Source of the DNA: Leptospirillum sp.
GTDB taxonomy: Bacteria > Nitrospirota > Leptospirillia > Leptospirillales > Leptospirillaceae
Assembly (NCBI GenBank): GCA_027315205.1
Contig: DAHUYM010000006.1
Coordinates: forward strand, 1-64,000
Direction of reading: 5' to 3'
Length of the DNA: 64,000 bases
Shown here in pieces: positions 741 to 12,511 of the stretch. The translations under genes and the position numbers were made by a program. Each line of letters starts with the position of its first letter. Positions within the stretch are counted from its first letter, which is position 1. The notes beneath the pieces were generated by a model. It saw only the letters and a list, made by a program, of their open reading frames with translations, was not told the DNA's origin and did not search any database.

Positions 741-775
741 CAAAAAAACAGGGAAGGGGATGTACCCTTCCCTGT
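741..775 (-). terminator. Rho-independent terminator of the isocitrate dehydrogenase operon
   Basis: Read on the minus strand, ACAGGGAAGGG pairs with CCCTTCCCTGT (748-775) around a loop of 5-6 bases, and is followed at once by seven T residues (742-748). It lies just after the stop of the small downstream gene (788). This is a textbook intrinsic terminator and the clearest in the window. Confidence 0.85.
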
Positions 776-787
776 GAGCCGCAGCGA

Positions 788-1138
788 CTAGTAGGCTTTG
801 CTGTATCCCGCTTCGTCGCCGTAGTTCCAAAGTTTCTGTGCAGCGGACCATTTCCACTTCTTTGTCAGTGCGGAAAGAAAACCGTCCACTTCCGCGTCGG
901 TCACTGTACGGGTGGCCATGAAACGGCAACGGTACCAGTTCACCAGCATCAGGTCGGGGCTGACGTATCCCGGCCAAACCTTTGTTCCGCGGTTGGAAAC
1001 AAATTCGATTTTGAACGCGCCGTACTCGTCGAAAGCCGGAATTCCGTCTTCGGTGATGATATAGACATCGACTCCTACTAGAGTGGCGGTTTTGACCTGC
1101 CTCTTTGCCCGGCCGGTAGTAGCTTGTGAAAGCGTCAT
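788..1138 (-). CDS. Stand-alone C-terminal domain of Thermus-type isocitrate dehydrogenase
   Basis: The 116 residues match the C-terminal extension (roughly the last 110-140 residues) of long isocitrate dehydrogenases such as that of Thermus thermophilus. Shared blocks, recalled from the family, are VGVDVYI, SNRGTKVWP, YRCRF and a final W-x2-x2-KL...G-x-x-K region. In the long enzymes this domain is fused to the catalytic core and helps the dimers assemble. Here it is a separate gene 25 bases after the stop of the core gene, with its own ATG, followed by a strong terminator. It therefore most likely encodes an accessory subunit of the same enzyme. It has no catalytic residues. A frameshift artefact is possible but unlikely, because both parts have proper ends and starts. 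Confidence 0.8.
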   Translation of the reverse strand: MTLSQATTGRAKRQVKTATLVGVDVYIITEDGIPAFDEYGAFKIEFVSNRGTKVWPGYVSPDLMLVNWYRCRFMATRTVTDAEVDGFLSALTKKWKWSAAQKLWNYGDEAGYSKAY

Positions 1139-1163
1139 CGAAGATCTCCTTGTCCTTTTTGTG

Positions 1164-2174
1164 TCAAACGGTCTCCATGGCCCGAACGATTGCTGCGGCG
1201 AACTCGTCAGTCGAAGCGGTTCCGCCGGCGTCGTAGGTCAGATGCTTGCCTTCTGCCAACACCTTGTCGAATCCCTTCTGGATACGGTCTGCCGCGGCTT
1301 TTTCGTTCAGCCAGCGAAGCATCATCACACCCGAGAGAAGGACAGCGGAAGGGTTCACTTTTTTCATGCCCGCATATTTCGGGGCGGATCCGTGAACGGC
1401 TTCGAAGATGGAACAGTTATCGCCGATGTTGGCGCCGGGAGCAAAGCCGAGACCGCCTACCAGTCCCGCGCAAAGGTCGGACAGGATATCACCGTAGAGA
1501 TTGGGGAGAACGAGACAGTCGAACTGGCCGGGATTCCGGACGAGTTGCATAGAACAGTTATCCACGATGATGTCGCCGGTTTCTATGTCCGGGTTTTTCT
1601 TAGCCACTTCGCGGAAGGCTTCAAGGAAAAGACCGTCGGTCATTTTCATGATATTGGCCTTGTGCACGCATTGGATCTTCTTCCGGTTGTTGGCACGGGC
1701 CCACTTGAAAGCGAATTCGGCAATGCGGACCGACCCTGGCCAGGTGATAACCTTCAGACACTGGGCCACTTCGTCGGAGACCATGTGCTCGATGGCGGCA
1801 TAGGAGTCTTCAGTGTTTTCCCGGAAGCTCAGGATGTCGATCTTGTCCCAAGGGCGCTTCAGGACCGGTATAAGCTTCACCGGACGGACATTGGCGTAGA
1901 GGTCGAACATCTTCCGAAGCGTCACGTTGGCGCTCTTGTGTCCAGTTCCCACCGGTGTCGTCGTCGGTCCCTTGATAGCGATCTTGTTCTTGGCGATGGA
2001 CTTGATGGTCTTCTCCGGCAGGAGAGTTCCATGTTCCTTCAGGCAATCGAGTCCGATTTCCTCGTACTCCCAGACAATGTCCACTCCGCTGTGGTCGATG
2101 ACGGACCTGACGGCTTCGCAGATTTCCGGTCCGGTTCCCTCTCCAGGGAGCATCGTGATAACGTGTTTTCCCAT
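1164..2174 (-). CDS. icd: Isocitrate dehydrogenase, catalytic core (probably NADP-dependent)
   Basis: This enzyme interconverts isocitrate and 2-oxoglutarate plus CO2 in the oxidative or reductive TCA cycle, in the cytoplasm. The protein has about 336 residues. Visible family residues are the S-x-N-x3-R substrate motif (81-87), Arg in SFREN (118), Tyr125, Lys172 in HKANIMK, and the metal aspartates in YGDILSD (228-233). The HGSAPKYAG loop (261-269) carries the Lys-Tyr pair typical of NADP-linked enzymes. Overall it resembles the Thermus enzyme more than isopropylmalate dehydrogenase. The core stops where Thermus IDH continues into its C-terminal domain, which is encoded by the next gene. The start chosen is ATG 2174, 11 bases after a GGAGG; ATG 2192 and ATG 2255 are alternatives. 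Confidence 0.85.
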   Translation of the reverse strand: MGKHVITMLPGEGTGPEICEAVRSVIDHSGVDIVWEYEEIGLDCLKEHGTLLPEKTIKSIAKNKIAIKGPTTTPVGTGHKSANVTLRKMFDLYANVRPVKLIPVLKRPWDKIDILSFRENTEDSYAAIEHMVSDEVAQCLKVITWPGSVRIAEFAFKWARANNRKKIQCVHKANIMKMTDGLFLEAFREVAKKNPDIETGDIIVDNCSMQLVRNPGQFDCLVLPNLYGDILSDLCAGLVGGLGFAPGANIGDNCSIFEAVHGSAPKYAGMKKVNPSAVLLSGVMMLRWLNEKAAADRIQKGFDKVLAEGKHLTYDAGGTASTDEFAAAIVRAMETV

Positions 2175-2268: not shown

Positions 2269-2296
2269 ACTATAATGCTTCAGGAAAACGTCTAAA
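2269..2296 (-). promoter_or_regulatory. Putative sigma70-type promoter of icd
   Basis: On the minus strand a TTTAGA -35 box (2291-2296) and a TATAGT -10 box (2269-2274) are separated by 16 bases. The predicted start lies about 85-90 bases before the chosen icd start. The boxes match 4 of 6 and 5 of 6 consensus positions. Confidence 0.5.
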
Positions 2297-2983: not shown

Positions 2984-3376
2984 CTAGAGCATTTCCTTCA
3001 AACCATTCCATGACCAGTGTATCACCACCATCATACGGTCAGTGCCGAAAGCCTCCAAGAAAACAACAACCCCGGCAATCGGAACTGTTTCCAAATGATC
3101 CTGAGCAGCCAGAACCCGGTCGAATGGATCCCGATGGCCTAGATCCCATAAAAGATGCGCCTCTCCCGTATGATTTGCCCCGCCTCCGACGAACCCGATC
3201 ACCTCCATCTGATCACCTTCTTTGAGACGCTGCCCTTCCCAACGCTCTTTAGACACGATTTCGAGATTCAACTCCACGACTACGGGCTTTTCAAGGAGGC
3301 CCATATGGTCCAATACATCCCGGATCGAACTGCCTTCGGCAAACGACCTGGACTCTCCGTTAATATTTATATTCAT
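2984..3376 (-). CDS. ThiS-like sulfur carrier fused in frame to a PIN-domain C-terminal remnant
   Basis: Residues 1-66 look like a whole ThiS protein: a short beta-grasp fold beginning MNININGE and reaching the family's normal end at VIGFVGGG. A working ThiS must end in Gly-Gly, whose carboxylate is adenylated and thiocarboxylated to deliver sulfur for the thiazole of thiamine. Here the frame continues for 64 more residues. That tail contains HRDPFDRVLAAQ and a later EAFGTD, which resemble the last third of PIN/VapC toxin nucleases (DPFDR-x-L-x-AQ). The first part of a PIN domain, with its first acidic residues, is absent. No thiG or other thiamine gene is adjacent. The start ATG 3376 follows GGGAGG. 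The carrier may be dead, or may need cleavage after the glycines. Confidence 0.7.
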   Translation of the reverse strand: MNININGESRSFAEGSSIRDVLDHMGLLEKPVVVELNLEIVSKERWEGQRLKEGDQMEVIGFVGGGANHTGEAHLLWDLGHRDPFDRVLAAQDHLETVPIAGVVVFLEAFGTDRMMVVIHWSWNGLKEML

Positions 3377-3508: not shown

Positions 3509-4492
3509 ATGACGGGTCTGTTTGAACAGATGATAGTCAATCCTATTGTGCGTTCATTCTATGTGGCCCACCTGGTCCTGATCACCGGGCTGGCCTATGT
3601 CGCGGCCGACATTGCGGACGAATCCATCAAAAATCGGCTCGCAGGCACGCCAAAATCTCCCCGGACCGGCATCAGCATCATCCATGGATCAGCGGGACTT
3701 CCCACCGAAGAAGACCTTCGCGCGATCGCCTCCCGGAATCCCTTCAGCCCCGAAGACCGGGGAACGGGCTTCCTGGAAGCATCCCTGAATCTGGACGACT
3801 CCTCTTCCCCATCCGATGAAGCGGGAGCCGTCGTTCCCGTTGGCGACTGGACCCGCCAGAAGCACCTCGCCGTCCTGAAGCCCGAAACAATCAAACTTCG
3901 TCTCGTGGGGACCCTTCTCGCGGCGGGTACTGTCTCGGGGGCCGTGATCCAGAGCATCGGCAAGGAAGACCAGAAATTCTACCATATCAACCAGGATATC
4001 GTGCCCGGTCGGATCACTCTCATGTTCGTGCGCAAAAATTCGGTGATCCTGCGCGTGGGAAACGACTTCGGGATTCTGAAAGCCCGTTACGACAAAGGAG
4101 ATGACTCCGGACAGCTCCTGAACCAGCCCAATGCCGGAGGATCCACCCCGCACGGGGTACGGAAGCTCGACGACCATCATTGGCTGATCGAATCCCGGGC
4201 GATCCAGTTTGCAATGAAAAATTTGAACAGCTTGATGATGCAGGCGCGGGCCATCCCGAACTTCAACAGCGGTCACGTGGACGGCTTCAAGCTCGTGGCG
4301 ATCCAGCCCGGGAGCCTCTACCAGGAGGTAGGGCTTGCCCCGGGCGACATCATCCGCTCGATCAACGGCATGTCCATGAGCGACCCGCAGAACTTCGTCA
4401 AGGCCATATCCACACTGGGAGCCTCCGCCCAGGTCCAGGTCGATCTGATCCGGAACGGGACCCCACAAACCTTCGACTACCAGATAAGATGA
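3509..4492 (+). CDS. gspC: Type II secretion inner-membrane protein GspC
   Basis: GspC links the inner-membrane platform to the outer-membrane secretin and takes part in substrate recruitment. The 327-residue protein has one membrane segment near residues 16-35, then a periplasmic region with a homology-region-like part around 125-180. It ends in a PDZ domain from about residue 245 (the AIQPGSLYQEVGLAPGDII segment is the typical carboxylate-loop region). It is the first gene of the cluster and overlaps gspD by ATGA. ATG 3505 lies in another frame and stops after six codons, so 3509 is the start. The identification rests on the PDZ domain, topology and position. Confidence 0.85.
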   Translation: MTGLFEQMIVNPIVRSFYVAHLVLITGLAYVAADIADESIKNRLAGTPKSPRTGISIIHGSAGLPTEEDLRAIASRNPFSPEDRGTGFLEASLNLDDSSSPSDEAGAVVPVGDWTRQKHLAVLKPETIKLRLVGTLLAAGTVSGAVIQSIGKEDQKFYHINQDIVPGRITLMFVRKNSVILRVGNDFGILKARYDKGDDSGQLLNQPNAGGSTPHGVRKLDDHHWLIESRAIQFAMKNLNSLMMQARAIPNFNSGHVDGFKLVAIQPGSLYQEVGLAPGDIIRSINGMSMSDPQNFVKAISTLGASAQVQVDLIRNGTPQTFDYQIR

Positions 4493-6126
4493 GGGACAAA
4501 AACGACGTGAACCCGAACCTATTCAAACGCTTGACCAGGATTACGAAGGTTGTGTTGTCCCTTATGCTCCTCTTGGTCTTTCTTCCCGCATACGCCAATG
4601 CCGCCGATACCTTGCCCATGCCTTTGTCCGTTCCGAACCCATCCCCCCAGATATCCCTGAACTTCCGGAACGTGGACATCTCCGTCATGGTGAAGTTCAT
4701 GAGCGATCTCCTGAACAAGAACATCGTAATGGACGAAAGGGTCAAGGGAAAGGTCACGATCCTTTCTCCCCAGAAGGTCTCGGTTTCCCGCGCATTCAGG
4801 ATTTTCGAGCAGGCGCTCAGGATGAAAGGGTTCGAGGCGGTGGAGAAAAAAGGGATGATCTTCATCGTCCCGGCGACCCAGGCTCCCCAGGACCGGGAAC
4901 TCTATCTCTACACCCTTGAGAACACCAGCGCCAAGTCCGTCGCCAAGACGATCAACAGCATCCTGTCGAAGGGGTTCACGCCGACCCCGATCGGCGCTCT
5001 CCGGAAAGGTGGCCTTTCGAACCCGGTCCAGATTGTTCCGGACAAAGCGTCGAACAGCTTGATCGTCTCATCGACGCCCCAGGACTATGCCATCGTCAAA
5101 TCGGTTCTCAGGGATCTCGACCGGCAGCCGGGAGAGGTATACGTCAAGGCATCCCTGATCGAGATCTCAACGGACAAGCTGAACAACATCCAGGTGAACC
5201 TCCTTGGTGCCGCGACTTACGGAAGCAATGGTGCCGGCGTCCTGGGCGGCACGAACTACGGACTGTTGGGCGGCGTGGTAAACGGTGCAGTCGGAAACAC
5301 CACGACCTCGACGACGGGGACGACATTGAGCGGCGCGGCGGGCGCGGCGTCCTATCTTTCCGGCCTTTCAGGCCTTACCGTTGGTCTTCTGACGGGGGGG
5401 ACTTTCAACTACAATGGTGTTACCTATCCGGATATCGGATCTCTTCTGAACGCGCTCCAGACCGACTCTGACATCCGGACCCTTTCCACTCCCGAAGTCC
5501 TCGCGACCGACTCTCAAAAGGCCAAGATCACGGTAGGGGAAGATGTTCCGTTTATCACGGGGCAGAGCCAGACCGTCGGCGGCAATGTGATGACCATGAT
5601 CCAGCGGGAAAACGTGGGCATCTCACTTGAACTGACTCCGCATATCCTTGCACACGACATGGTACGCCTCGACATGAAGCAGGAAGTATCAGCCCTCACC
5701 AACGCCTCCCAGTTAATCGGGACCATCGCCGTTGGCCCGACCACGACAAAACGGTCGACCAAAACCATTCTCACGGTCCAATCCGGCCAAACCGTCGTGA
5801 TCGGGGGACTCATCAGCTCGACGAAATCCATTACAAAGTCGACAATTCCTTTCTTGGGCGAAATTCCCATACTGGGATATCTTTTCTCCAATTCGACAGA
5901 CGAAATGGAAAGAGACGACCTCCTGATCTTCCTCACCCCCTATATCATCAAATCGTCCTACTCATATGCCCAGATCAAGCACGACGCCCCGGCCATGCTC
6001 AAGGAATACGCCCGTAAGAACGACCTTCTCCAGACACTGATCCTCCAGAAGAAAACGAACACCCACGAATCCGATTTCTACCTCGGAACGACCAATCCCC
6101 CGGGCGATCTCGGAGCTCCCCATTAG
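4489..6126 (+). CDS. gspD: Type II secretion outer-membrane secretin GspD (short form)
   Basis: GspD forms the outer-membrane channel through which folded proteins leave the cell. The 545 residues begin with a signal peptide (about 1-37, ending ...AYANAA). An N0 domain follows (about 48-120), then one N1/N3-type domain (YTLENTSAKSVAKTINSIL onward), a Gly/Thr/Ala-rich insertion (about 245-305), and the secretin barrel with TVQSGQTVVIGGL and PILGYLF. Typical GspD has three N1-like repeats and about 650 residues; only one is evident here. The ATG at 4489 overlaps the gspC stop. GTG 4507 is an alternative start. Confidence 0.92.
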   Translation: MRDKNDVNPNLFKRLTRITKVVLSLMLLLVFLPAYANAADTLPMPLSVPNPSPQISLNFRNVDISVMVKFMSDLLNKNIVMDERVKGKVTILSPQKVSVSRAFRIFEQALRMKGFEAVEKKGMIFIVPATQAPQDRELYLYTLENTSAKSVAKTINSILSKGFTPTPIGALRKGGLSNPVQIVPDKASNSLIVSSTPQDYAIVKSVLRDLDRQPGEVYVKASLIEISTDKLNNIQVNLLGAATYGSNGAGVLGGTNYGLLGGVVNGAVGNTTTSTTGTTLSGAAGAASYLSGLSGLTVGLLTGGTFNYNGVTYPDIGSLLNALQTDSDIRTLSTPEVLATDSQKAKITVGEDVPFITGQSQTVGGNVMTMIQRENVGISLELTPHILAHDMVRLDMKQEVSALTNASQLIGTIAVGPTTTKRSTKTILTVQSGQTVVIGGLISSTKSITKSTIPFLGEIPILGYLFSNSTDEMERDDLLIFLTPYIIKSSYSYAQIKHDAPAMLKEYARKNDLLQTLILQKKTNTHESDFYLGTTNPPGDLGAPH

Positions 6127-6138
6127 GATACGCCCTCG

Positions 6139-7869
6139 ATGAACGCCCTTTTCCGAGTGGCGCGGGCCTTGAACCCGCTCCAGACCCCCGATTCGGGGGC
6201 CACCGATCTTTCCGGAAGACTTGAGGCGATCCGGCAGGAATCCCCCGACCTTCTCTGGAAAAAATGGGCCAGTGCCCGTCACATTCCCTTTCTCTCGGAC
6301 TTTTCCCTCGACGGCTTCGATTCGGGGCTTCTGAGTTCCGTTCCCATCGGTTTCGCCAAAACCCATCTCGTGCTCCCCGCCGCATGGGAAGATTCCGGCA
6401 CCCAGGATAAGGGTCTTGTGGTCCTTGTCGGTCATCCACGGAGCTTCTGGGCTCTTCCCTCCCTGGCTGCGCTTCTTTTTACCGAGGGGATCCTCCAGAT
6501 ACCGTCCGACTCGGTTTTTCGTCTTCGCATGGTTCCGACGACGACCCTCCTGACCCTCATTAACCAGGCCTACGAAAAACACACACAGCACCGTACGACA
6601 GATGTCTTGTCGCGCATGGACGGGGGGGTGGAAGAATCGGTCGATCTTCTCTCCCTCCAGGAGTCCGTGGATCTTCTGGACGCCCGGGACGAAGCCCCGA
6701 TGATACGCCTCGCGAACTCGGTCCTTGCCCAGGCGATACGCCAGAAGGCCTCCGACATCCATGTCGAGCCCTTTGAAAAAGAACTCATGGTCCGGTACCG
6801 GGTCGATGGAGTCCTGTTCAATGTCCTTTCGATCCCGACACGCCTCCAGTCCGGGCTCGTTTCCCGCTTCAAGCTCATGGCCAACCTGAACATCGCGGAA
6901 AAAAGGCTTCCCCAGGACGGCCGGATCCGGATCCGGACCGCCGGGCGCGACGTCGACATCCGGGTATCGACGATTCCCATCCGTCACGGGGAACGGGTCG
7001 TCCTCCGGATCCTCGAGCAGGGAACCCTCCTTCTCCCCCTTTCGGAGATCGGGTTCGACGCGACCGACCTCCACACACTTCAGGGGCTGATCCGGTTGAC
7101 CAACGGAATCGTCCTGGTTACCGGGCCAACCGGGGCTGGTAAAACGACGACCCTTTACGCGATCCTGAACACGATCAACAGTCCCGACAAAAACATCATC
7201 ACGATCGAGGATCCCGTTGAATATCAGCTCAAAGGGATCGGACAGATCCAGGTCAACCCGAAAATCGAACTGACCTTTGCATCAGGGCTGCGTTCGATCC
7301 TCAGGCAGGACCCGGATGTCATCCTTATCGGGGAAATCCGGGACCTCGAGACCGCAGAGATCGCGATCCAGGCCTCTCTCACCGGCCACCTCGTTTTTTC
7401 GACCCTCCATACAAACGATGCGCCTTCGGCGATCACACGCCTCGTGGACATGGGGATCGAACCGTTCCTGATCTCGACAAGCCTGAAAGGCATCCTGGCA
7501 CAGAGGCTGGTCCGGAAGATCTGTCCTTCCTGCCGGGAATCCTACATCCCCGACGAGAACGAGCTCGCCCGGATGGGACTGGCTTTGACAAATCTTCCGG
7601 GCGGCACTCTTTCCAGAGGCAAAGGATGCGCGGCCTGTCTGAACACAGGATACAAGGGACGGCAGGGCATCTATGAACTTCTCATCATCGACGATGCGAT
7701 CGGCCACATGATCAACGAACGGGCCCGTGCCGCCGACATACGACAGTCGGCCCGCGCCAAGGGCTTGAACACTCTTCTCGAAGACGGGATGCGCAAGGTC
7801 CTGGCCGGCATCACGACCACGGAGGAAGTCCTGAGAGTCGCCCTCTCCGAAGTCGCGCCCGAGATCTAG
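6139..7869 (+). CDS. gspE: Type II secretion ATPase GspE
   Basis: This is the cytoplasmic ATPase that powers pseudopilus assembly. The 576-residue protein has an N-terminal N1E-like region and then the catalytic core. Walker A is GPTGAGKTTT near residue 330, the Asp box is ITIEDPVEYQ, Walker B is ILIGEIRD near 395, and the His box includes STLHTND. A tetracysteine zinc element (CPSC near 461, CAAC near 498) is of the type found in GspE and PilB. It sits 12 bases after gspD. All key catalytic motifs are intact. Confidence 0.95.
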   Translation: MNALFRVARALNPLQTPDSGATDLSGRLEAIRQESPDLLWKKWASARHIPFLSDFSLDGFDSGLLSSVPIGFAKTHLVLPAAWEDSGTQDKGLVVLVGHPRSFWALPSLAALLFTEGILQIPSDSVFRLRMVPTTTLLTLINQAYEKHTQHRTTDVLSRMDGGVEESVDLLSLQESVDLLDARDEAPMIRLANSVLAQAIRQKASDIHVEPFEKELMVRYRVDGVLFNVLSIPTRLQSGLVSRFKLMANLNIAEKRLPQDGRIRIRTAGRDVDIRVSTIPIRHGERVVLRILEQGTLLLPLSEIGFDATDLHTLQGLIRLTNGIVLVTGPTGAGKTTTLYAILNTINSPDKNIITIEDPVEYQLKGIGQIQVNPKIELTFASGLRSILRQDPDVILIGEIRDLETAEIAIQASLTGHLVFSTLHTNDAPSAITRLVDMGIEPFLISTSLKGILAQRLVRKICPSCRESYIPDENELARMGLALTNLPGGTLSRGKGCAACLNTGYKGRQGIYELLIIDDAIGHMINERARAADIRQSARAKGLNTLLEDGMRKVLAGITTTEEVLRVALSEVAPEI

Positions 7870-7880
7870 CCAGGCCCTCC

Positions 7881-9083
7881 ATGCCGGTCTATGCCTACGA
7901 AGGCGTACAGAACAACGGTTCCAGGGTCAGCGGCCTCGTCGACGCGGACAGCCCGAGAAACGCCCGCCAGAAACTCAAATCCCAGGGCATCGTTCCCATC
8001 ACCCTTTCCCCCCGGGAAGATTCGCTCTCCAGACCAGTATTCTCCAAGGGGAAAAAGGCCGGGGCGCGCGAAATGTCGGTATTCACACGGCAGCTCGCCA
8101 TTTTGGTGGGCGCAAAAATCCCGGTCGTCGACTCCCTGGGAGCGATCCTCGACCAGGGGCTCCCGGATCCGCTTGGAGGGGTCGTGGCCGCAGTCAGGGA
8201 AGACGTGAAGGAAGGCCAATCCCTGAACCGGGCCCTTTCGCTGCATCCCCGCATCTTTTCCGATCTTTTTGTCAATATGGTCCGGGCCGGGGAAGAGTCC
8301 GGCACCCTTGAAACGATGCTCGACAGGCTGGCGGATTTCCTGGAAAACCACCTCCAGACCCGAAGGAAGATCCTGGGAAGCCTTTTTTACCCGATCATCC
8401 TCCTGGGCGTGGGCATCCTGATGATCATCTTCCTCCTTGCCGTCGTCATGCCCCGGATCACCGCGATCTTCCAGGGGCTGAAAGCGACCCTTCCTCTTCC
8501 GACGCGACTACTCATGGGGATGTCCGACTGGATCACACACGAAACTCTTTACCTGGTCGGTGGGACCGCCCTGCTCTTTGTCCTAGCGGTCCGGGCCTTC
8601 AGAAATCACCGGACCCGGATCGATGCTCTGGCCCTCAAGATCCCCCGGATCGGATCCCTGATCGCGGCGGACCAGATCTCCCGCTTCGCCCGAACCCTTT
8701 CGGTCCTCCTGAAAGGGGGCGTACCCCTCCAACGGGCCCTTGAGATCGGGGCATCTGTCCTTTCGAACCGGATCCTTCGATCCGCCGTCGTTGAAAGCCG
8801 GGAAGCAGTACGAAACGGAGAATCGCTCGGAAACGCCCTAAAAAGGCATCCGGAAATGCCCCGGCTCGCGATCCACATGATCCAGACGGGAGAGCGTTCC
8901 GGCATGCTCGAGGAACTACTCCGAAAAATGGCCGAGGGGTACGAGGCGGAGGTGTCGCAAACCGTGTCAGCCCTCACTTCAATCATCGAGCCGGTTATGA
9001 TATTGTTTATCGGGGCCATTGTCCTCTTCATGGTCCTGGCCATCCTGTTACCGATCTTCGAGATGAGCCAGGCCGTCCAGTAA
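7881..9083 (+). CDS. gspF: Type II secretion inner-membrane platform protein GspF
   Basis: The 400-residue protein has the two tandem T2SSF domains of the family. The first (about 70-195) contains FTRQLAILVGAKIPVVDSL and GEESGTLETMLDRLA. The second (about 270-395) contains FARTLSVLLKGGVPL and TGERSGMLEELL. Three membrane segments are visible, near 170-192, 215-235 and 372-395. GspF is the platform on which GspE acts to assemble pseudopilin. It follows gspE by 11 bases. Confidence 0.95.
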   Translation: MPVYAYEGVQNNGSRVSGLVDADSPRNARQKLKSQGIVPITLSPREDSLSRPVFSKGKKAGAREMSVFTRQLAILVGAKIPVVDSLGAILDQGLPDPLGGVVAAVREDVKEGQSLNRALSLHPRIFSDLFVNMVRAGEESGTLETMLDRLADFLENHLQTRRKILGSLFYPIILLGVGILMIIFLLAVVMPRITAIFQGLKATLPLPTRLLMGMSDWITHETLYLVGGTALLFVLAVRAFRNHRTRIDALALKIPRIGSLIAADQISRFARTLSVLLKGGVPLQRALEIGASVLSNRILRSAVVESREAVRNGESLGNALKRHPEMPRLAIHMIQTGERSGMLEELLRKMAEGYEAEVSQTVSALTSIIEPVMILFIGAIVLFMVLAILLPIFEMSQAVQ

Positions 9084-9119
9084 CCCGTCTCCGGAATTCC
9101 CGTACGAAGAAGGAGCGAA

Positions 9120-9590
9120 GTGTTGGTGCTTTTTCAAAAGTCCCTTTTGCGGACCAGGCCGAGATGGAACGATCGCGGATTCACCCTGATCGAGATCATG
9201 GTCGTCATCTTCATCATCGCTCTTCTGGCCGCCCTCGTCGTTCCGAAGATCATCGGGAGAACAGAGGAAGCCAAGCGTGTCGCGGCGAAAGCGCAGATCC
9301 GGGAAATCGAAAACGCACTGAACCTTTACCACCTGGACAACGGAACCTATCCGACAACGGAGCAGACTCTCGACGCGCTCATCAAGAAACCCACCGCCCC
9401 TCCGGTTCCCAACAACTACAAGGCGGACGGATACATCTCCAAGATCCCTAAAGATCCTTGGGGCCGACCTTACCTTTATCTCTCTCCCGGCAACCACGGG
9501 GAGTTCGACATCATTTCGCTCGGCGCGGATGGAGTCCGGGGGGGAAAGGGAAACAATGCGGACATCGATTCGTGGGAACTGGATAAATAA
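9120..9590 (+). CDS. gspG: Major pseudopilin GspG
   Basis: GspG is the main subunit of the periplasmic pseudopilus. The 156-residue preprotein has a prepilin peptidase site, RG/FTLIE near residues 20-25, with Glu at position 5 of the mature protein, followed by the hydrophobic helix MVVIFIIALLAALVVPKI. The C-terminal half has the GspG calcium-site pattern (DPWGRPYLY, then LGADG and WELD). The GTG start follows a GAAGGAGC ribosome site. No prepilin peptidase gene is in the cluster. Confidence 0.95.
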   Translation: MLVLFQKSLLRTRPRWNDRGFTLIEIMVVIFIIALLAALVVPKIIGRTEEAKRVAAKAQIREIENALNLYHLDNGTYPTTEQTLDALIKKPTAPPVPNNYKADGYISKIPKDPWGRPYLYLSPGNHGEFDIISLGADGVRGGKGNNADIDSWELDK

Positions 9591-10563
9591 AGCCTTTGCC
9601 CTGGTTCAGCCAGGCCGCCTGAGGGCCTTGCTGGGAAGACGCCATTCGACGACGGCCGGGGTTCCCCTCGATTCCTCTTCCGGCTCCGCCAGAAAAAGAA
9701 AACTCCTGGCGATCGGATCGCTTGGAGCCTGGGGACTGGTCGTGTTTCTGGCATTGTTCGTCCACAATTTCCCGGGCCGGCTATTGGCCGAACACTTTAT
9801 CGAAGCCGTCTCCCAGACGACAGGCATCGGGATTTCGGCCCAGAATGCGAATTTCTCTCTTCCGGCCCGGCTGTCCTACGCAGGTCTCCATCTTGTGACG
9901 ACCTCTCCCGAAGGCCCCCTCGACTGGGAAATCCCCCAGGCAATGGGGACGGTGAGCCTGATCAGCCTCGCGACAGGAAAACCCCGTTACAATTTCGACG
10001 TCAAGGCGTACGGCGGTGAATTCCGCGGCAGGCTCCGGCAGGCCCGGCATGGCACGTGGAACCATCTCAAGGGGAAGACGATCCGGCCGATCGACCTATT
10101 GATGGCAAAGAAACTGATCCGCCAGGATCTTTCGGGACTCCTGAATCTCGAGACCGACTACACCTGGACGAAAGGACTCGAACAACGCGGCCACGGAATG
10201 CTCTCTCTCAGGGTCAGGGACCTGATCATCCGGTCCCTGAATATCAACGGATTCCCCCTCCCCGACCTGACTTTCCAGCACGTCCGGGGACGGGTCTTTC
10301 TGCACGATGGCCAGGGCAGACTCGAAACCCTGACCGCGGACGGACCCCTCGCCCATGTCACAGGCACGGGCACGATCCTTCTCAGGGTTCCTTACAACCA
10401 GAGCCTGATCAACCTGGACCTTCACGCCCGCCTGAGGGGACAGCTCAAATCCCTTCCTCTCCCGTCGGTCGAATCCAACACCGACCATACTCTCCACATC
10501 CATCTCCAGGGCCCTTTGTCCACCCCCACCGTGGCGTTGAACGGTCTGACACTTTCCCGATAG
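9556..10563 (+). CDS. gspN: Type II secretion protein GspN
   Basis: The roughly 335-residue protein has one N-terminal membrane segment (LGAWGLVVFLALFVH, near residues 58-75) and a long beta-rich periplasmic part with repeated short GTGT and HGQGRLE turns. It resembles the GspN form found in Deltaproteobacteria and related phyla. The role of GspN is poorly known; it is thought to sit in the inner membrane complex. The start chosen is ATG 9556 with a GGGGAAAGGG upstream, overlapping the end of gspG by 35 bases. An ATG at 9529 is the alternative. Confidence 0.7.
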   Translation: MRTSIRGNWINKAFALVQPGRLRALLGRRHSTTAGVPLDSSSGSARKRKLLAIGSLGAWGLVVFLALFVHNFPGRLLAEHFIEAVSQTTGIGISAQNANFSLPARLSYAGLHLVTTSPEGPLDWEIPQAMGTVSLISLATGKPRYNFDVKAYGGEFRGRLRQARHGTWNHLKGKTIRPIDLLMAKKLIRQDLSGLLNLETDYTWTKGLEQRGHGMLSLRVRDLIIRSLNINGFPLPDLTFQHVRGRVFLHDGQGRLETLTADGPLAHVTGTGTILLRVPYNQSLINLDLHARLRGQLKSLPLPSVESNTDHTLHIHLQGPLSTPTVALNGLTLSR

Positions 10564-10569
10564 AAACCG

Positions 10570-11928
10570 ATGCCGCCCTCTTACGCCTGGATACTCTCTC
10601 CCCGTCCCGACTCCTTGATGGTGTTCCGGATAAGACGGGTCAAAAAAACCTGGATCCTCGAGCAGAGCTCGTCGATACCCATTTCCCTTTCGGACCTGAT
10701 TTCTGGCCGGGACACGGGATCCGAAGACCTTTCACGATTGGGAATGTCCCGCCCCAATACCGCTGAAGTGGTCCTTCTTTGGCCGGGGGAACTTTCAGGG
10801 GCGGGCTCATTTAGTCTCCCCGGGATTCCGGAAAACGATCTCAAAAAAGTCGTGTCGGGTGAAATCGAATCCGTCATTCCCTGGGACGTCGACACGTGCC
10901 AGATCGCGTTTCACGCCGAACGCAGGGGAACCGGCTGGGAAACGTATGTATGGGCCACGCCCAGAAAACTCGTCGAACGCGCTGTCTCGAAACTCACACG
11001 GACGGGGCTCGAACCCAAGCACGTCATTCCTGAGTCCTTCACCCTCTTTGCCGGCACGGAAACCCGAACTGCCGGGATTTCGGAAACCGAAGCGGTCGTC
11101 GGCCCGATGCCCGGACGGCTCCTCGTACAGGTCCTGAAAGGGGGTTTCCCCCAGCGAGAAACCGTCCTGACATGCCCTCCGGGAACGGATTTCGGAGACA
11201 CCCTCGACCAGCTGCTCGCCGCTTACTACCTGCTCGAACTTCCCGAAACCTGCGAACTTCGCTGGATCGGACCGGAGGCAAGTGATGCGTCCTCCGATCC
11301 CGACCCGGCGGACGGGTGGCACACCGCCGACGAAGAACGGATCCGGCTTGCCGCATCGGGAATCTGGAAGGGCTGGTCCGTCCGCCGGGGCCTTCCAGAT
11401 TTCCGGAGCGGTTCGATGGCGTTTCGGAAAGACCAGGAACACCTTGTTCGGAAGTTCCGGACCCTGGCCGCCATGGGACTCGTACTCCTCCTCCTGGGAG
11501 GCATCGACGCATGGATTCATGTCCATGGGCTCCGGACGCGCGTCGAAAAGACCCGTTCCTTCCTGGACGGCTTGGCGAAACAGAGCCTCTCCCCGGCACC
11601 GGTCATCGAGCCGATCAGCCAGCTTCGACAAAAGAGGAACGCCCTTCTGGATCAGAAGAGGTTCCTGTCCCGCGGCACCGACATGATCGCCATATTGAAG
11701 GACATTGCCACAGAGCCACCGGGAAACATCCCCTTCGAAATGGTCTCCGTTTCCCTTGGAAGTCACCGGTTGAGCCTCTCGGGCAAGACGGACAGCTTTC
11801 AGCACGTCGAGGCCGTCCGGCAGGCCCTCCTGAAATCCCCCCACATTCGGTCTCTGTCGGTCCAGAGCGCCCGGCTCGATATCGACCATAAAACGGTGGC
11901 GTTCCGGATGGGAGGAGTCCATGACTGA
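10570..11928 (+). CDS. gspL: Type II secretion platform protein GspL
   Basis: The 452-residue protein has a cytoplasmic actin-like N-terminal half (about 1-280; EVVLLWPGE and the TFTLFAG region fit the GspL/PilM fold). One membrane segment lies near 298-316 (MGLVLLLLGGIDAW), followed by a coiled region and a C-terminal ferredoxin-like periplasmic domain. GspL recruits GspE to the membrane and partners GspM. It overlaps gspM by 8 bases. Sequence similarity is weak, as usual for GspL; topology and position support the call. Confidence 0.8.
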   Translation: MPPSYAWILSPRPDSLMVFRIRRVKKTWILEQSSSIPISLSDLISGRDTGSEDLSRLGMSRPNTAEVVLLWPGELSGAGSFSLPGIPENDLKKVVSGEIESVIPWDVDTCQIAFHAERRGTGWETYVWATPRKLVERAVSKLTRTGLEPKHVIPESFTLFAGTETRTAGISETEAVVGPMPGRLLVQVLKGGFPQRETVLTCPPGTDFGDTLDQLLAAYYLLELPETCELRWIGPEASDASSDPDPADGWHTADEERIRLAASGIWKGWSVRRGLPDFRSGSMAFRKDQEHLVRKFRTLAAMGLVLLLLGGIDAWIHVHGLRTRVEKTRSFLDGLAKQSLSPAPVIEPISQLRQKRNALLDQKRFLSRGTDMIAILKDIATEPPGNIPFEMVSVSLGSHRLSLSGKTDSFQHVEAVRQALLKSPHIRSLSVQSARLDIDHKTVAFRMGGVHD

Positions 11929-12511
11929 CATGACTGCGCGGTTTCCGGACGCATGGAAAAACGGAATACGGGCGATATGGGAGCGCTGGAACCGGCTGAC
12001 CGACCGTGAAAAAAGGCTCCTTTCCGTTCTCGGAACCGTTCTGGCCCTGTATGCAGGCCAAAAAACCGTGGACATCCTTTTTGTGGCACCCTACGAGCGC
12101 TACCATGCCGAAGAAGAATCCCTGAGATCGGATATTCTGCTTGCCCAGACGCTGTCCCAGGAAATCCGGAGGAACCAGGACGAGATCCGGACCCGGACTT
12201 TAAGGCTCGTCCAGGACCGTGCGGGGTTTTCCCTGATCTCATACCTCGAGCAGGAGGCCACCCAGGCGCAAATCCGTTCGAGCATTACCCAGATGACCCC
12301 GCGGACACTGCCACCCGAAGGTGGGTATCATTCCGTCTTGGTGAGCCTCAGGATTGAGAACGTCGACCTTCCTCACGTCCTTTTCTTCCTGGCCCGGATC
12401 GAACGTTCCCCCCATCTGCTCCGGATCACGCGCCTCACGATGGAACGCCGTTTCGACCATCACCGGCTCCTTGACGTACACCTCGATGTGCAAAGCATCC
12501 AGTCTTCCTGA
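11921..12511 (+). CDS. gspM: Type II secretion protein GspM
   Basis: The 196-residue protein has a short cytoplasmic N-terminus, the W-x2-LTDREKRLLSVLG motif that opens GspM/PilO-like proteins, a membrane segment near 33-52, a coiled coil (about 60-105) and a small ferredoxin-like C-terminal domain. It partners GspL in the inner-membrane platform. Its 3' end overlaps the chosen start of gspK. Confidence 0.8.
   Translation: MTDMTARFPDAWKNGIRAIWERWNRLTDREKRLLSVLGTVLALYAGQKTVDILFVAPYERYHAEEESLRSDILLAQTLSQEIRRNQDEIRTRTLRLVQDRAGFSLISYLEQEATQAQIRSSITQMTPRTLPPEGGYHSVLVSLRIENVDLPHVLFFLARIERSPHLLRITRLTMERRFDHHRLLDVHLDVQSIQSS

Follow-up and report, generated by a model that had tools for sequence, protein, structure and literature searches.

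The locus considered here raises the question of whether two adjacent genes, one for an isocitrate dehydrogenase (IDH) core and one for a protein of 116 residues, encode the two parts of a single enzyme. It lies near the start of the window, the whole stretch of 64,000 nucleotides analysed from a Leptospirillum sp. contig (DAHUYM010000006.1, positions 1 to 64,000). Its features, in the direction of transcription, are as follows.

2269..2296, minus strand: promoter-like match 5' of the core gene (one found against 1.2 expected, no more than chance)
1164..2174, minus strand: IDH core gene, 336 aa, ATG start, TGA stop at 1164-1166 (from the ORF, Pfam, and PDB alignment)
1746..1790, minus strand: codons of the clasp beta-hairpin, core residues 129-143, EHMVSDEVAQCLKVI, the predicted docking site of the small subunit
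1368..1394, minus strand: codons of the cofactor motif HGSAPKYAG, core residues 261-269, with Lys-Tyr as in the Thermus NADP-IDH
1139..1163, minus strand: intergenic gap of 25 nt (from the sequence)
1146..1151, minus strand: Shine-Dalgarno-like AAGGAG 5' of the small-gene ATG (read from the sequence)
788..1138, minus strand: small-subunit gene, 116 aa, a stand-alone C-terminal domain of subfamily IV IDH
920..997, minus strand: most conserved stretch of the small subunit, residues 48-73, SNRGTKVWPG ... NWYRCRF (from alignments)
748..775, minus strand: intrinsic-terminator hairpin of 11 bp with 7 GC pairs, then a T run, just 3' of the small gene

An IDH core and its C-terminal domain in separate genes

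The core matches the Iso_dh family (PF00180) with 334 bits (E 1.3e-99) in a Pfam profile search and contains all of the active-site motifs of that family (SxNVxxRK, RENxEDxY, HKANIxK, and DILSDL). Its best match in the PDB is the Thermus IDH 2d1c, of which it spans residues 18-353 (E 6.9e-103); this match and the trees described below place it among the subfamily III/IV-type Iso_dh proteins. Its scores do not reach the NCBIfam equivalog cut-offs (398.5 of 509 bits for PRK09222; 326.7 of 561 bits for TIGR02924).

For the small protein the Pfam match is PF18324, 'Bacterial isocitrate dehydrogenase, C-terminal domain'; it extends across 97 of the 116 residues and scores 48.1 bits against a curated cut-off of 25 (E 1.4e-12). 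The small protein also aligns with 2d1c residues 387-492 (E 1.9e-08); against PRK09222 and TIGR02924 it scores 43.9 and 28.4 bits, under the curated cut-offs of 509 and 561. The AlphaFold model of the small protein alone has a mean pLDDT of 86.7, and 2d1c_A is the sole PDB match to this model below E 0.001 (Foldseek E 7.2e-5, prob 1.00, TM 0.60). A plasmid search with the small protein gave no match. The first-pass annotation had taken the core for a Thermus-type enzyme and the ATG-started gene 25 bases downstream for its C-terminal domain, and had proposed a profile search of the small protein as a possible refutation; both identifications are borne out by these matches. Since the core corresponds to 2d1c residues 18-353 and the small protein to residues 387-492, the break falls within the Thermus linker (approximately residues 354-386), and the linker itself is absent.

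The genes are separate translation units. The two ORFs lie in different frames, each with its own start, so that the covalent attachment of core and domain in a chain of 480-500 residues, a criterion of subfamily IV, is not found here; GGAG-type sites stand before the small-gene ATG of relatives at the same place as the AAGGAG in the window. The terminator scan reported no terminator between core and small gene, and the strong terminator that had been noted after the small gene holds up, its hairpin folding at -23.8 kcal/mol (z = -4.7 against shuffles). At unsaturated synonymous sites the small gene has a dN/dS of about 0.04-0.09 and the core one of 0.03-0.05, and these low values mean that both genes are under purifying selection; a pseudogene reading was dropped on the strength of dN/dS and conservation.

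A tRNA-Gly (ccc) gene lies upstream of the putative IDH operon at 2785-2859 on the minus strand, and at 2984-3376 on the same strand is an ORF for a ThiS-family sulfur carrier (PF02597, residues 3-66), the frame of which continues for approximately 60 residues beyond the Gly-Gly-Gly motif that normally ends the protein; processing may be needed, or a frame error may be present. A type II secretion cluster occupies 3509-12511 on the plus strand and encodes a GspC-like protein, the secretin GspD, the ATPase GspE, GspF, the pseudopilin GspG, and a GspM-like protein, together with two unassigned ORFs.

Distribution, gene order, and co-occurrence

The small gene is found in 17 of 21 genomes of its own family, with the core directly upstream of it at every locus where both are complete. 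A search across the phylum found PF18324 in 52 of 396 genomes, which belong to this family, to the large Nitrospira family and, with one genome each, to another family and to a case with a fused protein. In a cross-species scan with one genome per species, the best 80 of at least 588 candidate stretches comprise 51 split loci with the core first, one split locus with the small gene first, and 28 fused loci; the core-first loci among these best 80 come from Leptospirillum-like MAGs, Nitrospira, and five Bacillota MAGs, and an Armatimonadetes MAG supplied the small-first locus. In N. moscoviensis two core-small pairs lie approximately 300 kb apart in the complete genome (NZ_CP011801.1, loci L070 and L089). 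Between the two genes there are 7 to 68 nt in the family and in Nitrospira, and each of the three frames is represented; among the Bacillota, one MAG shows a 16-nt overlap of core and small gene and others have larger gaps.

Of 251 Armatimonadota genomes, 90 have PF18324; most of these carry it in a fused protein, and approximately two dozen have it as a short frame of its own. When 22 further split loci were fetched, the small gene proved to lie directly upstream of the core in all 23, counting the first; six genomes among the 22 also have a fused copy. There are thus two split clades with opposite gene orders, order A (core first) and order B (small gene first), and in every full-length locus checked, in both orders, the core and small gene are adjacent and on the same strand. 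Whether the two genes stay adjacent and separate in relatives was a check proposed in the first-pass annotation. They do so at each full-length locus that was checked, be it from the family, from Nitrospira, or from a few Bacillota MAGs; recurrence of the split in dozens of independent assemblies takes the place of resequencing.

Several single observations accompany this survey. One Nitrospira-family genome has an in-frame TAG within the small gene (G176:C13:135217-135447), reflecting decay or sequencing error. Two public records titled 'Nitrosospira' (L077 and L086) sit among Nitrospira sequences and are probably mislabelled. PF18324 is absent from all 14 control genomes, including Thermus composti, which may lack this type of IDH; Thermus-type fused proteins elsewhere score more than 100 bits. 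A third fused type (L137, L138, and L223-L227) combines a compact C-terminal domain with DI in the cofactor motif, and some of its genomes also carry a Thermus-type fused IDH.

Core and small gene are also missing together. Four genomes of the family without the small gene (64-88% complete) lack this core as well, their best matches being isopropylmalate-dehydrogenase-like; two of the four carry an IDH-like protein of 418 aa with only approximately 46% partial identity, and from its length, that of E. coli-type IDH, it may belong to that type. This core is also missing from four near-complete Nitrospira-family genomes that do not have the small gene. These have a monomeric IDH, as do two Nitrospira-family genomes with the split pair.

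The genome from which the window comes (2.0 Mb, 42 contigs, 99.9% complete) has just one other Iso_dh gene, which groups with isopropylmalate dehydrogenases, and no monomeric IDH was found in it. The split enzyme is therefore the only IDH found in this genome and must carry the isocitrate/2-oxoglutarate step. The same genome encodes a citrate-binding domain of the ATP-citrate-lyase/citryl-CoA-synthetase type and two POR/OGOR-type alpha subunits, which agrees with the description of a reductive TCA cycle in L. ferriphilum (PMC2607301).

The small protein as a probable second subunit

The Lys-Tyr pair of the cofactor motif (HGSAP-KY-AG) occurs in all 111 order-A split loci (many of them redundant), in 21 of 24 order-B loci (the other three being without it), and in 11 of 14 Thermus-type fused loci; the compact fused forms have DI. 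Because these determinants are common to the NADP-dependent Thermus enzyme, NADP use is predicted for the split IDH, which on the basis of its sequence is probably NADP-dependent.

In the Thermus enzyme the C-terminal region forms a domain lying over the clasp, TtIDH residues 148-160 (Vinekar et al. 2012, PMC3521221), and these residues align with core residues 129-141. A scan in 13-residue windows for core positions that distinguish domain-associated IDHs (split and fused) from stand-alone IDHs places core residues 131-143 at the top of 324 windows. When the ten clades compared are divided five and five, the true division gives the strongest clasp signal of the 126 divisions, in absolute terms as well as against the remainder of the protein; this is a coarse control, made up only of other divisions of the same ten clades. 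The signature is present in both split clades. It is what docking in trans would predict and supports it indirectly, and it could stem partly from shared ancestry if all domain-bearing IDHs form one clade, a grouping that is not rejected (p-AU 0.30). The core and small protein were also modelled as one chain, joined by readthrough of a relative's stop codon; in this monomer with its short, artificial linker (pTM 0.69, linker pLDDT below 50) the domain is placed unlike that of 2d1c (TM 0.71, rmsd 14.2 Å, 479 columns), a construct of this kind being no fair test of docking.

From these observations it is probable that the two products form one heteromeric enzyme, an obligate two-subunit IDH, and the small gene very probably encodes its overlooked second subunit. 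The core and small gene would constitute a bicistronic operon for this enzyme. The core would bear the active site and dimerise through its clasp hairpins; the small protein, as the detached C-terminal domain of subfamily IV, would pack in trans over the clasp and complete a layer that is formed in cis in the fused enzyme. The stoichiometry would most likely be core2-small2, and the direction is presumably reductive in this autotroph.

Other readings of the locus are less probable. That a sequencing error hides one fused protein, or that a programmed frameshift or stop-codon readthrough produces it, might be suggested by some relatives whose core and small ORF share a frame (gap of 24 nt), but gaps of 7, 13, 23, 24, 25, 27, 28, 31, 35, and 40 nt, among others, cover all three frames, the arrangement recurs at more than 100 loci from many independent assemblies, and a ribosome-binding site precedes the small ATG; such an artefact or recoding is next to impossible, and frameshift and readthrough in particular are ruled out by the gaps in all three frames together with the reversed gene order in Armatimonadota. 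It is very improbable, too, that the small protein works independently in some other process and is a mere genomic neighbour of the core. Its confident fold when modelled alone would suit such a protein, but it adjoins this core in every full-length locus of either order, is missing together with it, has no other significant fold match, and is accompanied by the clasp signature in the core.

Another reading, with which adjacency and co-occurrence would also agree, is that of a dissociable regulator, which binds the clasp conditionally and alters either how active the enzyme is or how far it favours oxidation over reductive carboxylation. Separate genes would allow the two proteins to be made in unequal amounts, the reductive TCA cycle has been described in relatives, genes of that type are present in the window's genome, and Foldseek finds a very weak resemblance of the small-protein model to PII/CutA-type plaits (prob 0.2-0.5, E > 0.1). 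Those matches are not significant, however, and a PII/CutA-like fold was dropped as a clue to regulation; no ligand motif was seen, and near-constant adjacency with a shared terminator points to matched production of the two proteins. We consider such a regulator unlikely. A possible part of the split in controlling the direction of the TCA cycle, raised in the first-pass annotation, is backed here by no more than the reductive-TCA-type genes of the host, and the split is found in Armatimonadota too. Decidedly improbable is the combined proposal that the free C-terminal domain serves as a titratable subunit for direction, which favours reductive carboxylation of 2-oxoglutarate when bound to the clasp, and that the two-gene form is ancestral to the fused Thermus and Rickettsia enzymes.

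Origin of the split and relation to known enzymes

How the two-gene form arose is a separate matter, compatible with a heteromer in either case: a fused ancestor may have undergone fission, with one later reversal of gene order, or an ancestral two-gene enzyme may have been fused later. In the core tree order-A split, order-B split, and each of three fused types form one clade with support of 100/99 or better. It also groups the two split clades, with support of 75/58 under one sampling and 90/73 under another; the C-domain tree unites them at 97/95. The first rooted version of the core tree has the fused clades branching off outside the split ones, as fission would have it, but with wider sampling the deep forks collapse and fused forms group at only 35/78. 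One-clade tests for order-A split with Thermus-type fused forms, for order-A split with compact fused forms, and for all domain-bearing forms reject none of these groupings (p-AU 0.22-0.30); the last of them, a single gain of the domain, has a p-AU of 0.30. Opposite gene orders would not be expected from one simple fission: the order in Armatimonadota means that simple in-place fission cannot explain both split clades, and the pair must have been rearranged at least once or else assembled independently. Fission with a later reversal is a tentative account, to which we give slightly less than an even chance.

The split enzyme resembles the subfamily IV IDH of Thermus thermophilus (TtIDH, 2d1c; PMC3521221) in its core, PF18324 domain of approximately 100 residues, Lys-Tyr motif, and clasp region; TtIDH differs in being one chain of 496 aa, whereas the split IDH has two genes, no linker, and a more compact domain. 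The long IDHs of Rickettsia and alphaproteobacteria (TIGR02924, PRK09222) likewise combine the core with a PF18324 domain, but these are fused, have mostly Asp-Ile or another cofactor motif, and form a separate clade. Subfamily III IDHs (the human and yeast NAD-IDH; stand-alone forms in Xanthomonas and Methylococcus) likewise have a core of 330-340 aa to which no C-terminal domain is attached, and they differ in the clasp signature. The eukaryotic members are heteromeric, as is proposed here, but their hetero-subunits are paralogues of the core and not a separate domain; we know of no PF18324 partner for this subfamily. The Hydrogenobacter system, IDH with 2-oxoglutarate carboxylase (cited in PMC2607301), is similar in offering a multi-component route to reductive carboxylation. 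Its second component is a carboxylase, which is not known to be related to PF18324.

For L. ferriphilum, the IDH of the reductive TCA cycle was called similar to that of E. coli and how it works was left open (PMC2607301). An 'NAD+-dependent' IDH gene, which may be the core described here, was the most induced in planktonic cells of L. ferrooxidans, with no second subunit mentioned in the passage concerned (PMC2996932). In N. moscoviensis IDH is among the most abundant TCA-cycle proteins, a second subunit again going unmentioned in the passages concerned (PMC8407350). A search of open papers found no published description of a separate gene for the IDH C-terminal domain.

The two-gene form of subfamily IV IDH is real, conserved, and overlooked. 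IDH is a textbook enzyme of central metabolism, and Nitrospira are important nitrite oxidisers. If the small gene encodes a subunit, studies that express the core alone would be studies of an incomplete enzyme. Two split clades of opposite gene order, together with fused and domain-less relatives, provide a natural experiment on the role of the C-terminal domain. For Leptospirillum-like iron oxidisers the split form is the IDH predicted, and many Nitrospira have it beside a second IDH type.
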